Virus record (IMG/VR): IMGVR_UViG_3300030451_001970
Location: 1 to 22,400 of that record
Direction: 5' to 3' (one strand)
DNA length: 22,400 nt
Source of the DNA: a virus
The notes under the pieces were generated by a model. That model did not search any database. It was not told the DNA's origin and saw nothing but the letters and a program-made list of their open reading frames with translations. The translations under genes were made by a program, and so were the position numbers. Positions 3,620 to 13,000 of the stretch are shown piece after piece (the first letter of the stretch is position 1; every line of letters starts with the position of its first letter).

Positions 3620-3650
3620 TTGTTTATCCTTTCTTTAGACAATTTCAGTA

Positions 3651-3708
3651 CAGGCGTTAGCTAATTCCAGGAGTAAGCACTCCCCTGGGCTAATTCACTA
3701 ACGCCCTG
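3651..3708 (-). other. Two-stem nested hairpin with internal direct repeat
   Basis: Outer arms CAGGCGTTAG (3651-3660) and CTAACGCCCTG (3698-3708) pair with one extra base. Inner arms CCAGGAGT (3667-3674) and ACTCCCCTGG (3679-3688) pair with two extra C. The internal loop carries CTAATT on one side and GCTAATTCA on the other. It lies 32 bases upstream of the 70-aa gene start. Confidence 0.6.
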
Positions 3709-3770
3709 AGTTTATAGTTTACATCAATTCATACTGGTACTATCACCTTTCTTGCTTCATTGATATCTCT

Positions 3771-3850
3771 TGCTACATCAGTCATTACCTACTAACCTAC
3801 TTCATACTCCAATGGTATGGCTACTTAAGCGTTTGGTTCATGATGTAGCA
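3771..3850. other. Wide inverted repeat with inner hairpin
   Basis: TGCTACATCA (3771-3780) is a perfect reverse complement of TGATGTAGCA (3841-3850). Between them CATAC (3803-3807) pairs with GTATG (3815-3819), and AACC/GGTT can also pair. The 3620-3962 gap otherwise has only an 18-codon open frame lacking a convincing RBS. Meaning unknown. Confidence 0.45.
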
Positions 3851-3914
3851 CTCTCTTTTTATTAACGCAGTGTGCTATCTGCGAAAGTATGTAGCTATCA
3901 TTATAGCAACAGAC

Positions 3915-3952
3915 TTTACTCTCCCTACATTATACAATATAGGGAGTGTAAA
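3915..3952 (-). other. 13-bp hairpin downstream of the 92-aa gene
   Basis: Arms 3915-3927 and 3940-3952 pair at 12 of 13 positions (TTTACTCTCCCTA against TAGGGAGTGTAAA) around a 12-nt AT-rich loop. It starts 10 bases past the stop of the 92-aa gene. The expected U-run is absent in the leftward transcript, so termination is doubtful. 3'-end protection or processing is equally possible. Confidence 0.6.
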
Positions 3953-3962
3953 ACCTATCGGT

Positions 3963-4241
3963 TTAAAAGGCTGCTGTACCTTCAAGCACATCAGTGCTTT
4001 TAGTTTCAGCAGTTTCTGATACTTCCTCAGTATCAGTTGCAGCTTCCGCTGCCTTAGCCTCTTTCTTGGCTAAGTATGTTTCGCTTTGCTTATGCAATGC
4101 GATTACCTCGTTGATATCGAGATAAAGTGGAATGGTTTGCAAAGAACCATTAATGTATCTTTGCACGAATGTGCGTTCACGCCATTCGGTAAGTGTTTTA
4201 CCTGTAATTCCACACACTACAGGTTGCATTGGTTTTGACAT
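3963..4241 (-). CDS. Hypothetical protein, 92 aa, acidic Ala/Glu-rich tail
   Basis: ATG 4241-4239 is preceded by AGAAAGGATACT. The first 55 residues look folded (MSKPMQPVVCGITGKTL...), with one Cys and a CGITG turn. The rest is a low-complexity Ala, Glu, Thr and Lys tail that is probably disordered (KKEAKAAEAATDTEE...). I do not recognise the family. Hairpins flank the gene on both sides (3915-3952 and 4297-4353). A weak GACATA/TATGTC pairing (4237-4242 with 4263-4268) spans its RBS. Function unknown. Confidence 0.75.
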   Translation of the reverse strand: MSKPMQPVVCGITGKTLTEWRERTFVQRYINGSLQTIPLYLDINEVIALHKQSETYLAKKEAKAAEAATDTEEVSETAETKSTDVLEGTAAF

Positions 4242-4296
4242 AGTATCCTTTCTATAATCGCTTATGTCTCATAATATATATTATTATCTTACATAA

Positions 4297-4353
4297 TATA
4301 TATCAGTCATCTTTCTGACTTCAAGAAGTCTGAAGAAAGATGAGTGATATATA
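4297..4353 (-). repeat. Bulged hairpin H1 (family of six)
   Basis: Outer arms 4297-4316 and 4334-4353 pair with one mismatch. A three-base bulge TGA (4331-4333) lies on one side only. The inner stem is GACTTC (4317-4322) with GAAGTC (4325-4330), and two bases AA lie between. It directly abuts the stop codon of the 27-aa gene (4354). Confidence 0.8.
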
Positions 4354-4437
4354 CTATCCTGTGTGATACACATGATAGAAATAATCAGCAGTATGTTCTA
4401 CGCCACATTCGTGGCAGTAAATTGTTTCAACAATCAA
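4354..4437 (-). CDS. Mini zinc-knuckle-like protein, 27 aa (TTG start)
   Basis: A TTG at 4437-4435 sits behind GAAAGGTATAAA and opens a 27-codon frame ending with TAG at 4356-4354. The product (M)IVETIYCHECGVEH... contains a CHEC knuckle followed by two or three His residues (GVEH, FYHVYH) that could complete a zinc site. No ATG is available in frame, so the start is inferred from the RBS. It follows the 26-aa gene by 14 bases with no hairpin between, so the two probably form one unit. The small size and non-ATG start keep confidence moderate. Confidence 0.5.
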   Translation of the reverse strand: MIVETIYCHECGVEHTADYFYHVYHTG

Positions 4438-4451
4438 TTTATACCTTTCAG

Positions 4452-4532
4452 TTATTCATAGCAGTGGCAGTCTTTATCCCATTCGGGTAATTCACACCAC
4501 ATGCAATAGTTATCTACACCATACTTAATCAT
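4452..4532 (-). CDS. Mini cysteine-rich protein, 26 aa
   Basis: ATG 4532-4530 is preceded by AAAGGAATATAT, the same RBS form as its larger neighbours. The product reads MIKYGVDNYCMWCELPEWD followed by KDCHCYE. The CxxC and CxC pairs about nine residues apart could bind one zinc ion, as in rubredoxin-like knuckles. It is far below normal annotation length, but the RBS, the cysteine pattern and the position between hairpin H2 and the next gene support a real gene. Function unknown; nucleic-acid or protein binding is a guess. Confidence 0.55.
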   Translation of the reverse strand: MIKYGVDNYCMWCELPEWDKDCHCYE

Positions 4533-4552
4533 ATATATTCCTTTCAATATAT

Positions 4553-4593
4553 AATTACTGTCCTGAACTCAAGAGTTCGGAAGGACAGTAATT
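4553..4593 (-). repeat. Bulged hairpin H2 (family of six)
   Basis: Outer arms 4553-4564 and 4582-4593 pair perfectly over 12 bp. The one-sided bulge GGA is at 4579-4581. Inner stem GAACTC (4565-4570) pairs with GAGTTC (4573-4578), with AA between. It begins 7 bases past the stop of the 74-aa gene and ends before the RBS of the 26-aa gene. Confidence 0.8.
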
Positions 4594-4600
4594 TATTTGA

Positions 4601-4825
4601 TTATTTAAATAGTGCCAGCTTTAGCTGGTCTATCTTGGTTAGTTCCTGTTTAGAAACTTCCCAAGCATTATCCCCATTTAAATACACTTTGGTGCTACAC
4701 GCACCATAATGTATATTAAGGGGATATGTCATACCATTTTTAGCTGGTTTCCAGTATGCATCTTTCTTAAAAACGATTTCGCTTTTACATACTCTACATA
4801 CTTTTTTATTTTTAAATTTATCCAT
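4601..4825 (-). CDS. Small CxxC protein, 74 aa, possible zinc finger
   Basis: I placed the start at ATG 4825-4823 (MDKFKNKKVCRVCKSEI), not the upstream in-frame ATG, because AAAGAAAGGAATAAAA directly precedes it. CRVC at residues 10-13 plus His39 and Cys43 (NIHYGAC) could form a treble-clef type zinc site. HNH-type proteins share that fold, but no HNH catalytic signature is evident. The product is lysine-rich and could bind nucleic acid. It lies between bulged hairpins H2 and H3 and is the longest of three consecutive tiny cysteine-containing genes. Confidence 0.7.
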   Translation of the reverse strand: MDKFKNKKVCRVCKSEIVFKKDAYWKPAKNGMTYPLNIHYGACSTKVYLNGDNAWEVSKQELTKIDQLKLALFK

Positions 4826-4861
4826 TTTTATTCCTTTCTTTAAATAGATAAGATACATAAG

Positions 4862-4910
4862 TATCAGTCAGTATTCTGACCACAAGTGGTCGGAAGAATA
4901 CTGATTGATA
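4862..4910 (-). repeat. Bulged hairpin H3 (family of six)
   Basis: Outer arms 4862-4877 and 4895-4910 pair over 16 positions, one being G-T. The bulge GGA is at 4892-4894. Inner stem GACCAC (4878-4883) pairs with GTGGTC (4886-4891), with AA between. The inner stem differs from H1 and H4 on both sides together, so pairing is kept while sequence changes. It lies upstream of the 74-aa gene. Confidence 0.8.
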
Positions 4911-4920
4911 ATTACACACT

Positions 4921-5028
4921 GCGACACTCTGGTCATGCTCAGCTTGTTGTGTCGCTGGGTTTGTACCGATGGTTGCCATACATACTCGTATCATGAACTC
5001 TCTACTTACTCGTATGTATCATTGCAAC
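4921..5028 (-). other. Gene-free cassette with two further hairpins
   Basis: GCGACAC (4921-4927) pairs perfectly with GTGTCGC (4949-4955) around a 21-nt loop. ATACATAC (4978-4985) pairs with GTATGTAT (5012-5019), extended by GTTGC (4972-4976) with GCAAC (5024-5028) across an uneven bulge. No credible gene lies here. The stretch sits between H3 and H4 where a gene would be expected. Confidence 0.5.
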
Positions 5029-5057
5029 TAAATACTCATTAAGATTAACTCCTTTCT
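5028..5057 (-). other. Strong RBS followed by a three-codon frame
   Basis: AGAAAGGAG (5057-5049) with nine bases of spacing precedes ATG 5039-5037, but that frame reads only Met-Ser-Ile and stops at TAG 5030-5028. It may be the relic of a lost gene start, a minimal leader frame, or a ribosome-docking site. A strong RBS without a gene is unusual in this compact arm. Confidence 0.4.
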
Positions 5058-5063
5058 AATAAG

Positions 5064-5112
5064 TATCAGTCAGCATTCTGACTTCAAGAAGTCGGAAGAA
5101 TGCTGAATGATA
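5064..5112 (-). repeat. Bulged hairpin H4 (family of six)
   Basis: Outer arms 5064-5079 and 5097-5112 pair at 15 of 16 positions. The bulge GGA is at 5094-5096. Inner stem GACTTC (5080-5085) pairs with GAAGTC (5088-5093), with AA between. It ends one base from the stop codon of the 47-aa gene. Confidence 0.8.
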
Positions 5113-5113
5113 A

Positions 5114-5257
5114 TTACTTTTTAAGATATTTTTCCCTTAAAGTTGGAACCTCGCTATAAATATCTTTATTCCAATTACGCAAGGCTATATATCTTACACG
5201 CCATTTCCATACTTTATAAGTCTGGAATGGCACTAACCAATATCTTAATTTATTCAT
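5114..5257 (-). CDS. Small basic protein, 47 aa
   Basis: ATG 5257-5255 (MNKLRYWLVPFQTYKVW...) follows CAGAAAGGATATT. The longer in-frame version starting at 5329 would read through hairpin H5 and lacks an RBS, so I reject it. The product is rich in Lys, Arg and aromatic residues (KVWKWRVRYIALRNW), consistent with a small nucleic-acid- or membrane-associated peptide. No family is recognised. It is the first gene of the leftward arm and is bracketed by H4 and H5. Confidence 0.65.
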   Translation of the reverse strand: MNKLRYWLVPFQTYKVWKWRVRYIALRNWNKDIYSEVPTLREKYLKK

Positions 5258-5269
5258 AATATCCTTTCT

Positions 5270-5310
5270 GTCGGAAGGTTCGAACTCAGAAGTTCGAGAA
5301 CCTTCTAGAC
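5270..5310 (-). repeat. Bulged hairpin H5 (divergent member)
   Basis: Inner stem TCGAACT (5280-5286) pairs with AGTTCGA (5291-5297) around CAGA. A two-base bulge GA (5298-5299) follows. The outer stem (5273-5279 with 5300-5306) then continues imperfectly to 5270/5310. The layout matches H1-H4 but the bulge and loop differ. It ends 12 bases before the start of the 47-aa gene. Confidence 0.65.
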
Positions 5311-5384
5311 ATAAAGATATATAATTCATAAGACTGTATAGGTATCTTAAATAACTATATATCTCTATATTTTAATGTACTAGG

Positions 5385-5429
5385 AAGCCAGACTGTCTGA
5401 CTTCAGGAAGTCTGAAGACAGTCTGTCTT
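5385..5429 (-). repeat. Bulged hairpin H6 (family of six)
   Basis: Outer arms 5385-5398 and 5416-5429 pair at 13 of 14 positions. The bulge TGA is at 5413-5415. Inner stem GACTTC (5399-5404) pairs with GAAGTC (5407-5412), with AG between. It lies in the leader of the leftward arm with no gene immediately on either side. Confidence 0.8.
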
Positions 5430-5452
5430 ACTCTGTACAAAAATTAGAGATA

Positions 5453-5524: not shown

Positions 5525-5615
5525 AAGGTTTATAAAATATGCTGGTAATTCGGTAGGAAACCCAGTAAGAATGGGCGTTAGCGGGCATATGGTTTTTTAA
5601 AGCTAACTAAACCTT
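5525..5615. other. Folded intergenic segment, candidate leader RNA
   Basis: AAGGTTTA (5525-5532) closes with TAAACCTT (5608-5615). Inside, ATATGC (5537-5542) pairs with GCATAT (5585-5590), and CCCA (5561-5564) with TGGG (5572-5575). GTTAGC (5577-5582) could instead pair with GCTAAC (5602-5607), crossing the ATATGC stem as a pseudoknot or competing fold. No gene is present. If leftward transcripts start near 5740, this lies in their leader. The rest of 5616-5728 shows nothing I can identify. Confidence 0.4.
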
Positions 5616-5728
5616 TTCTTAAGTCCTTGGGTACTGCCTTTGTCTTTCTAGTGTACTGTCTTGCCAGTCAGCAGCTTTCTGCATCCCGATTGCACCTTCA
5701 CCTGTAACAGATTACTTGTGTTTAGTGT

Positions 5729-5757
5729 TTGTAATTAACATGACTATAGCATATAAT
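5729..5757 (+). promoter_or_regulatory. Candidate promoter for the packaging/virion arm
   Basis: TTGTAA (5729-5734, four of six matches to the -35 consensus), a 17-base spacer and a perfect TATAAT (5752-5757) form a sigma70-type promoter. It lies about 40 bases upstream of the terminase start and points rightward. Confidence 0.6.
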
Positions 5758-5770
5758 TCTCACTATACAA
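5743..5770 (-). promoter_or_regulatory. Candidate leftward promoter overlapping the rightward one
   Basis: On the minus strand TTGTAT (5770-5765), a 16-base spacer and TATAGT (5748-5743) form a weaker sigma70-like promoter. It overlaps the rightward -10 region, so the two polymerases would compete. It would serve the leftward arm through a ~480-nt leader. The -35 match is poor, so this is tentative. Confidence 0.3.
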
Positions 5771-5795
5771 ACATCTAAAGAAAGATAGTGAAATA

Positions 5796-10020: not shown

Positions 10021-13000
10021 TGGCATTTATACTCAATGATAGAAATGAGTATTATGACATACTTAATTCACGTAGACAACTAGAACAACAAGCAAGTCAA
10101 TATAATGCTTTATTACAAACTAATCCAGAACAAGTATTAGAAAATCTAGAAAAATATCCTACTGAATTAGATACAGGTACTGCATTAGGTATGAGTATTT
10201 TAGGAATACCACCTGAATATCAAGCTGTTAAAGAAATAGCACAGTCTAGTAGAACTAATAAACTTTATAACGAAGCTAAGTTATGGCAAGAATTACAACA
10301 AAGATATCAATATGACCATGTAGAAAACAATATGAAGATGACATGGGGTGACTTATGGACAGGTGGACTAATGCCAGGAGGAGCTAAACCAGGAGATGTT
10401 CAGTATGGTGTATGGGCATTTGCTGCTTTAGATGCTTTCTTTCAAACAGTTGGTCCATCAGGTAAATGGTCTGTTATAGGTTCTGCTGTAAATGCATTAT
10501 CACCTGGACAACCTATGAAAGTAGGTAGGTCACAAGCATATCTAAGAGATTTAAGGTCATACGATAAATTACTTAAAAAAGGTTATACACCACAAAAAGC
10601 ACAAGATATGTTGCAAATAGACCTTAGTGGCACTCAAGTATCTGGATTAGGACAAGAACTTGGAACAATAGATGAACTTAGACAACAAATTGATATGATA
10701 CAAGAAGCACATAAGATGGGTGGAGAACCTGTACTTGCTGCTATGTTTAGAGCTGTATCAGAAGGTAAACCATTAAACTTTGATAGAAGTACAAAAATTA
10801 CATTAGAATCTGTAAAAGCAGAAAAAACACCTTACTATGTTGCATTAACTACAGATTATGGAATGTCACCTGACCAAGCTAGAGATTTTATTTATAGCAA
10901 TATAGGAGCTCCATTAAAGAATTTTGATGAAAATGGCGAAATACATTACACTTCTGCATTTAATCCTAATAAAATTAATTTCTTTGCAGGTAGAGCACAA
11001 CAAAGATTCTTTTGGGCAGGACAATCAGAACAAGATTACTTTAGACCTGAGTGGGCAGATAGAGATATATTGCTTGAGTACTCACCAGGTAGAGTAACTG
11101 CAGCTGAAGTTTTCGCACCTGGCTCTAAAGCTTTTAATGTTATGTCAGGTTTAACTGATGCTGCATACCAAATTGCACCAGAATTATTAGCTGGTAAAGG
11201 TATTAAAGGAGTTAAAAACATTAGTAAAGGATTACGTAGAGTTAATCCTGCTATGGAACTATTAGATGAAGGTGCATTAGTTAAAGGTACTAAGTTTAGT
11301 AAAAAACGTGTACGAGTAAGTAGCAAAAACTTAGCAGATAATATTTTAGAAGAAGTAGGACCAGAAATTGATGGAGCTACTGGTACAGGTAATTTAAGTA
11401 AATTAGTTAATAATGCAGGTCAATTGATAACAAATCAAACAATTGGTAAAGATATAAGCACTACTAAGAAAGCTCTTAGAAAAATTAAAAAAGAACATAC
11501 TTTATTTGGTAGAGTACCTAAATTCTTTCAAACTACAAAAGATGAGATATTAAACAACAATACTAATATTGAGTTCTTTAAAGCATTAGCAGAAGAAGAT
11601 AACCTGTATTTAATTAGTAATAATCCAATTACTAGACATTTACCTGCACAAGTTCAGTCAGATATCGTAGCAGAAACTGATTGGAGAAAAGTACAAGGTA
11701 TGTTTGATGACATGATTTCATCATCAGGTTATGCAATACGTAATGATGTAGGACAAATGGTACCTTATACATTACCTGGACGTATGTTACCTAAGACTGG
11801 TTCACTTGCAGTAAATAAATTTTTACAATCTACTGGTTTAAACCCTAATGCTAACTACAGAACATTTGGTAGTTGGGCTGGTGAAAAAACAAGAAAACTA
11901 CGTGAAGGTGTATTTCCTATAAGAAAATCTAGAAAAGAACCTACTAAGTTAGTAGAAGTTGGTAATGAAGCTGTTATTGACACTATGGATGCAGTATCTG
12001 ATAAAGCATCAGCATTAGCTAAGTTAGAAAACGTTACACCATCATATGCATTAGAAAAATTAGATTTAGCAGGTGCACCTAAGTTTGAAAGATATTTAGG
12101 TTTTAGTTCTAACTTTAACTCTACATACAATCCTTATTACAGAAAGTTATTAGGAGTTGTTCCTGACATGGGAATACCTCTTAATAATTTAAATGTTGGG
12201 TATAAACAATTGTCATCTCATTTGCAAATTAATGGTTATGACGCAGATACTGCTAATAAAATTATGAAAGATTTTATGGCAATTAATCCATTAGATAAAC
12301 CTGCATATAGAGATTTTGCTTTTCAACAAGCTTCTAGAGATTTAAAGATGGTAAGAGCTAGAGGTGGTAATCATGAATATATAGCAGACTATGCAGCTCA
12401 AATGTTTGAAGGTCTTAATAAAATGAAAATATATGCAACTGATGCAGACAAAAACATACTTCCTAATATTGGTTCTAACTATAGAGGATTTGAAATAAAT
12501 GAATTAGGTTATGCAACAGATGAGTTAGGTAATGCTGTAACTACTATGAGTGGTTCTATGTTTAGTGAAATGCAAGACAATATTGCACCATTGTTAGATT
12601 ATAGATTGTTAGAACGTGCATTAGGACCTTTGTTTAAAGCATATCCAGAAAATCAGTTTAAAGCTACAAGTATTCTTTCTGATACAAAAAAATATGTTAA
12701 ATATAAAACACAACATTTGTCTTGGAATAAAGCAGAAGATGCTATTCCTAATCCTTTTGATGATGGAATATTAAATGTTAAAAGATTAGAGAATAACTTT
12801 GTAAGCAATGTTATGTCTTTTTATACAAGAAATTTATTTAAACCTTTTGTATTAATGAGAGCTGCTTTCTTTACTCGTGTATTTATGGAAGAACAAGCAC
12901 GTATAGCAGTTAAAGGATTATCTAGTATTTACAACAGACCATACGAATACTTTCAATGGTTAGCTGCACATAATCCTAATTCACGTGTGGGTAAAATATT

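Follow-up and report, generated by a model that had tools for sequence, protein, structure and literature searches.

In the early mRNA of bacteriophage T7, the RNase III sites are bulged or internal-loop hairpins that lie between early genes and precede ribosome-binding sites. The attC sites of integrons conserve structure over sequence, mark the strand by extrahelical bases and occur as one site per small gene. In the mycobacteriophages of cluster K, the extended start-associated sequences (ESAS) are 17-bp inverted repeats upstream of starts, with a per-genome consensus that differs between subclusters, an adjoining 13-bp SAS (GGGATAGGAGCCC) and an unknown function (PMC3203893; PMC7302621). 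Start-linked inverted repeats are also found in clusters O and EG (PMC3203893; PMC7302621). The promoter early stem-loops (PeSLs) of T4-type phages are described, as cited in PMC4503421, as composite promoter–terminator motifs. Here, we analyse six bulged hairpins (H1–H6) from a viral genome; Rfam, searched at gathering and permissive thresholds, yielded no family for them, and no account of such bulged hairpins was found in the literature at the level of titles and abstracts.

Architecture and layout of the hairpin zone

The window analysed is 22.4 kb in length and represents most of a 22.7-kb virus record. An independent scan for an inner stem of at least 5 bp, a one-sided bulge and an outer stem of at least 7 bp matched exactly six sites in the window (4307–4343, 4553–4593, 4862–4910, 5070–5106, 5273–5306 and 5389–5425), all within 4293–5432, compared with 0–2 sites (mean of ~0.2) in 40 dinucleotide-shuffled windows. 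The scan thus recovers the six hairpins that the original prediction had placed in a leftward operon. All six share one orientation with the bulge on the same side; as first described, the bulge reads TGA or GGA in five of the six and GA in H5 on the plus strand, and on the mRNA (minus) strand it is a 5′-side UCC or UCA. Folding of the leftward RNA returned the expected structure in every case (z of −2.8 to −6.9). In the sense direction (leftward, minus strand) the unit consists of an outer arm, the UCC/UCA bulge, an inner stem (GAC...GUC or GAA...UUC), a short loop, with a C(UU)G tip in four hairpins, and the second outer arm; the stem comprises roughly 18–26 bp and the bulge on the mRNA 5′ arm 2–4 nt. 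A feature that had not been listed previously is common to H1, H3, H4 and H6, in which a 10-bp middle stem is followed by a 1×1 mismatch and a basal stem.

All of the hairpins are given here on the minus strand. H1 (4293–4357; core 4307–4343) has the inner stem GACUUC/GAAGUC, a 5′ UCA bulge and a C·C mismatch. H2 (4553–4593) has a UCC bulge and a 12-bp outer stem, and is located 7 nt after the stop of a 74-aa ORF and 8–10 nt before the Shine–Dalgarno sequence of a 26-aa ORF. H3 (4858–4914; core 4868–4904) combines a UCC bulge with the inner stem GACCAC/GUGGUC and an A·C mismatch, and H4 (5058–5117; core 5070–5106) a UCC bulge with a U·C mismatch. H5 (5268–5309) is a shorter form whose bulge has 2 nt; it precedes the start of a 47-aa ORF by 15 nt. 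H6 (5382–5432; core 5389–5425), with a UCA bulge and an A·G mismatch, is the first hairpin of the operon. Both H6 and the hairpins at its position in relatives L051, L055, L062 and L073 allow two alternative folds with the bulge on either arm (GACUUC/GAAGUC or CUUCCAG/CUGGAAG) and may thus be two-state hairpins.

The leftward ORFs of this zone are tiny and have no assigned function, and most begin behind a GAAAGGA-like Shine–Dalgarno sequence. They include the 47-aa ORF (5114–5257, minus), the 74-aa ORF (4601–4825, minus; zinc-ribbon-like, with a weak Pfam match), the 27-aa and 26-aa ORFs between H1 and H2 (4354–4532, minus) and a conserved 92-aa gene (3963–4241, minus), at which the zone of bulged hairpins ends. 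The position between genes is as predicted: the basal arm of H1 contains the stop of the 27-aa ORF and the 47-aa ORF stops at the foot of H4. Likewise, none of the six stems is followed by a U-run, and a list of terminator-like structures includes none of the six hairpins; only a small alternative stem inside H4 is on it. A unit of hairpin plus Shine–Dalgarno sequence fills almost every gap from the operon start to the 92-aa gene, standing 7–14 nt behind the stop of any preceding gene and, in most cases, immediately ahead of the next Shine–Dalgarno sequence; H5 and H6 precede the first gene, at the 5′ end of the transcript. A noncoding stretch of ~150 nt between H3 and H4 (4911–5057) has inverted repeats of its own and is missing in L010, L002 and L037, as if lost by recombination between H3 and H4.

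The layouts of 22 loci follow one plan. An H6-like hairpin comes first, at a near-constant distance from terL, and bulged units occupy the gaps up to the 92-aa gene, after which the core-type bulged unit is absent. The earlier statement that almost every small transcription unit is bracketed by such hairpins holds only close to the promoter, ahead of the 92-aa gene; the downstream gaps carry different, plain hairpins. In five relatives (L066, L071, L051, L062 and L027) the 74-aa gene is placed after the 92-aa gene and has a plain hairpin behind it, or, in L062, no hairpin within 62 nt; position, and not the gene, therefore decides the kind of hairpin. At equivalent gaps after orthologous genes, sister lineages have stable plain hairpins or a hairpin with a U-run, the latter as canonical terminators in, for example, L036, L052, L042 and L076.

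Among close relatives the gene changes while the hairpins around it stay as they are, and some relatives retain the hairpins on either side of the 47-aa ORF but have ORFs unrelated to it in its place. No sequence difference separates L033 from L037 before the first start codon; beyond it their genes are unrelated, and identity returns (94 and 100%) only over islands of ~70 nt that correspond to the hairpin and the Shine–Dalgarno sequence. In the alignment, L037 also has a hairpin whose body is of the H4 type and whose downstream flank is that of H3, and the units of one genome are ~75–90% alike. The hairpins resemble punctuation marks that can be reused for plug-in genes.

Other noncoding stretches of the window may also be structured. 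Between terL and H6 lies a candidate structured leader RNA of 122 nt (5606–5727, minus, i.e. leftward), which contains no ORF and is conserved in about 50 relatives. In 36 diverged sequences its 22 pairs are paired in 98.1% of cells, 14 of the 22 pairs have double changes (114 double-change cells versus 30 in shuffles) and G–U pairs are present. It has no match above chance in Rfam and looks, from this alignment, like a new structured leader RNA, which could be riboswitch-like or related to packaging. At ~5735–5775 (minus) the stretch TTAGATGTTTGTATAGTGAGAATTATATGCTATAGT is conserved in nearly all aligned relatives; within it, TGCTATAGT resembles an extended −10 element and is perhaps the leftward early promoter. 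Three noncoding gaps of ~350 nt each (872–1230, 2577–2934 and 3620–3962) fold strongly and are possible structured RNAs, the second with the repeated long-range arms AGATAGCTTG...CAAGCTACCT.

Covariation and G–U pairs in relatives

At least 599 stretches in IMG/VR encode a related TerL, and this group of marine phages is apparently common. Its TerL is ~26% identical to those of Streptomyces phages and its major head protein ~26% identical to those of Mycobacterium and Propionibacterium phages. The phage is not T7-like; its closest structural proteins, at ~25% identity, are those of actinobacteriophages. Two relatives are contained in an Actinomycetota MAG, and MAGs of other groups contain other relatives. 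An actinobacterial host is therefore likely for this marine phage. A search for tRNA and tmRNA genes found none.

More than 45 further distinct hairpins with the H1–H6 architecture were found in the IMG/VR relatives, and a sequence-pattern scan of IMG/VR added several more members with 3–5 hairpins each, most of which score well. Many more copies thus occur in related viromes. In sister record G001 (35.9 kb) the matches of a covariance model cluster at 10465–11585 only, which is the early zone, with none elsewhere in the record; at E values of up to 0.1 there was no match in eight of 16 related records. In an alignment of 29 distinct hairpins, chosen partly by their pairing, 98.5% of cells are paired, 14 of the 15 pairs have double changes and double-change cells number 98, compared with 24.5 in shuffles; slid-structure controls are at most 36% paired. 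In an ungated test, stretches after the stops of orthologous genes were taken by protein homology alone, and these contain strong hairpins in most lineages. Judged from the alignment, shape is kept over sequence in the bulged hairpins, as had been predicted, since pairing is nearly complete and almost every pair has changed on both sides. The bulge is near-uniform within a genome and differs by clade (UCC/UCA, GCU or UUCC), and the inner stem almost always starts with GA.

The bulged class treats G–U as a mismatch. The 66 bulged-core hairpins in gaps have 34 G–U pairs in the sense and 33 in the antisense direction in ~1500 pairs (2.2%), and those bulged hairpins that follow the 74-aa and 27-aa genes together have four in the sense and two in the antisense direction in more than 350 pairs; all G–U counts come from related sequences and carry no probability. 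Where the sites were defined by gene homology, the hairpin that follows the 92-aa gene (3906–3960, minus), which is similar in length to the bulged class, has 78 sense versus one antisense (~16% G–U) and is clearly a true sense-strand RNA hairpin with the opposite behaviour to H1–H6. The plain hairpins after the 74-aa gene have 17 versus two, and in the neighbouring leader RNA ~10% of cells are G–U (83 of 791). Hairpins in coding regions made up most of what a loose survey of local folds over 3 kb upstream of terL picked up, and the survey was hence limited to gaps; the sense G–U excess of plain hairpins in this gap survey is partly ascertainment, as coding hairpins behave alike, and only the comparison at orthologous sites is free of this effect.

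The near-absence of G–U on both strands weakens a simple RNA-stability reading, and would fit a structure at the DNA level, a protein that demands regular helices or homogenization of the arms by template switching. Correction of quasi-palindromes by template switching (PMC3820800) could change both arms together even if the RNA were not under selection. Such an origin is conceivable for the hairpin arms here, but it leaves unexplained both the ~16% G–U of the similarly long hairpin after the 92-aa gene and the persistence of the bulge.

Proposed transcript punctuation and its alternatives

The reading that we favour, with moderate confidence, is that H1–H6 are intercistronic punctuation units of the leftward early transcript, at which the RNA is cut or trimmed. 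They would be double-stranded RNA processing sites or would set 3′ ends, with host RNase III, acting next to the bulge, as the likeliest enzyme. Each small gene would then yield a separate mRNA, capped by a hairpin at its end, and would be expressed independently of its neighbour; by analogy with T7, the bulge may direct cutting of a single strand. Six copies where ~0.2 are expected by chance, the covariation and the clustering of covariance matches in the early zone all argue for this reading. It is preferred because the strict order of stop, hairpin and Shine–Dalgarno sequence, together with the 3′-end elements (plain hairpins or hairpins with U-runs) in the equivalent gaps of sister lineages, points to transcript ends. 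RNase III is favoured because of the T7 analogy and because the Actinomycetota MAG that holds two relatives encodes this enzyme (227 bits); Pfam and PHROGs scans of phage genes, which covered part of the sister-record ORFs, found no phage-coded RNase III. Against punctuation, plain selection on RNA should tolerate the G–U pairs that are equally rare on both strands, and a nuclease blind to sequence would not require a bulge that is uniform within a genome and specific to a clade.

The strict Watson–Crick pairing on both strands would be expected of DNA-level palindromes, in which hairpins of single-stranded DNA or cruciforms serve as exchange joints for small gene cassettes and the bulge marks one strand. 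The ~70-nt islands between unrelated genes in L033 and L037, the hybrid H4/H3 unit of L037 and the likeness of units within a genome also suit such joints, on which a phage annealing protein could act; a weak Rad52-like match is present in G001. This alternative is nevertheless unlikely: in sister lineages plain RNA hairpins or terminators take the equivalent gaps, the fixed placement of the units after a stop and before a Shine–Dalgarno sequence suits mRNA, and homologous recombination between repeats may be all that the exchange requires.

The clade-specific bulge would be accommodated if the units are operators for a phage or host RNA-binding protein that recognizes the inner stem together with the 5′ bulge and regulates the early genes as a single regulon. 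The bulge motif changes together at all positions, the inner stem nearly always starts with GA and the stem pairing is strict, all as such a protein might demand. However, no RNA-binding protein was recognized among the phage genes examined, and recombination between units could also explain concerted change, so that we regard an operator as rather unlikely. It is distinctly improbable, in our estimate, that the units combine roles as structure-defined, strand-marked exchange joints, built as bulged palindromes with strict Watson–Crick arms, that also separate messages; if true, they would provide a recombinase-free parallel to integron cassettes, with unrelated small genes plugged between constant punctuation. 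Intrinsic terminators can be rejected for H1–H6, which have no U-runs, and terminators or attenuators without a U-tract, as proposed for some actinobacterial terminators, are very improbable: the canonical terminators at equivalent sister-lineage gaps would suit them, but sigma-70-like sites for restarting transcription are not in excess (20 found versus 22.3 expected, with a consensus that may not be the promoter type of the host) and H5 and H6 precede the first gene.

Comparison with known systems

The nearest known kinds are the ESAS, the PeSLs of T4-type phages and the T7 RNase III sites, and we claim membership in none of them. Integron attC sites resemble the bulged hairpins in keeping structure over sequence, in marking the strand by extrahelical bases and in their association with single small genes. 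The attC core sites GTTRRRY/RYYYAAC were not noticed at the arm ends when these were read by eye, and no integrase or recombinase was recognized among the genes examined.

The T7 sites are closest in shape and place: H1–H6 are also long imperfect hairpins of the predicted RNA between early genes. The phage group is unrelated, however, G–U pairs are almost absent here and cleavage is putative. In evolutionary behaviour the PeSLs, as far as the citing article describes them, are closest, being intergenic stem-loops that form constant joints among shuffled small genes; the layouts and the L033/L037 pair reveal the bulged hairpins as constant joints in just such a zone. Compared with that description, the hairpins here show no excess of sigma-70-like promoter sites and no U-runs. 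The ESAS are closest in place and host group, as inverted repeats before the starts of non-structural actinobacteriophage genes, in one orientation and many per genome, with a consensus that varies by subcluster. Their arms share a sequence consensus, whereas the outer arms of H1–H6 vary with pairing kept; H1–H6 carry a strand-specific bulge and have no SAS, the motif GGGATAGGAGCCC being absent near the hairpins, with three-mismatch matches only at chance level.

Several actinobacteriophage clusters are reported to have inverted repeats linked to starts, with no known function. The bulged family offers a clear architecture, seen in dozens of diverged copies, direct cases of genes exchanged between hairpins that stay constant, and an internal control in the plain RNA hairpins of the same operon, which show the opposite G–U behaviour. 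The choice between RNA processing, a protein operator and a DNA exchange joint is therefore a testable question.
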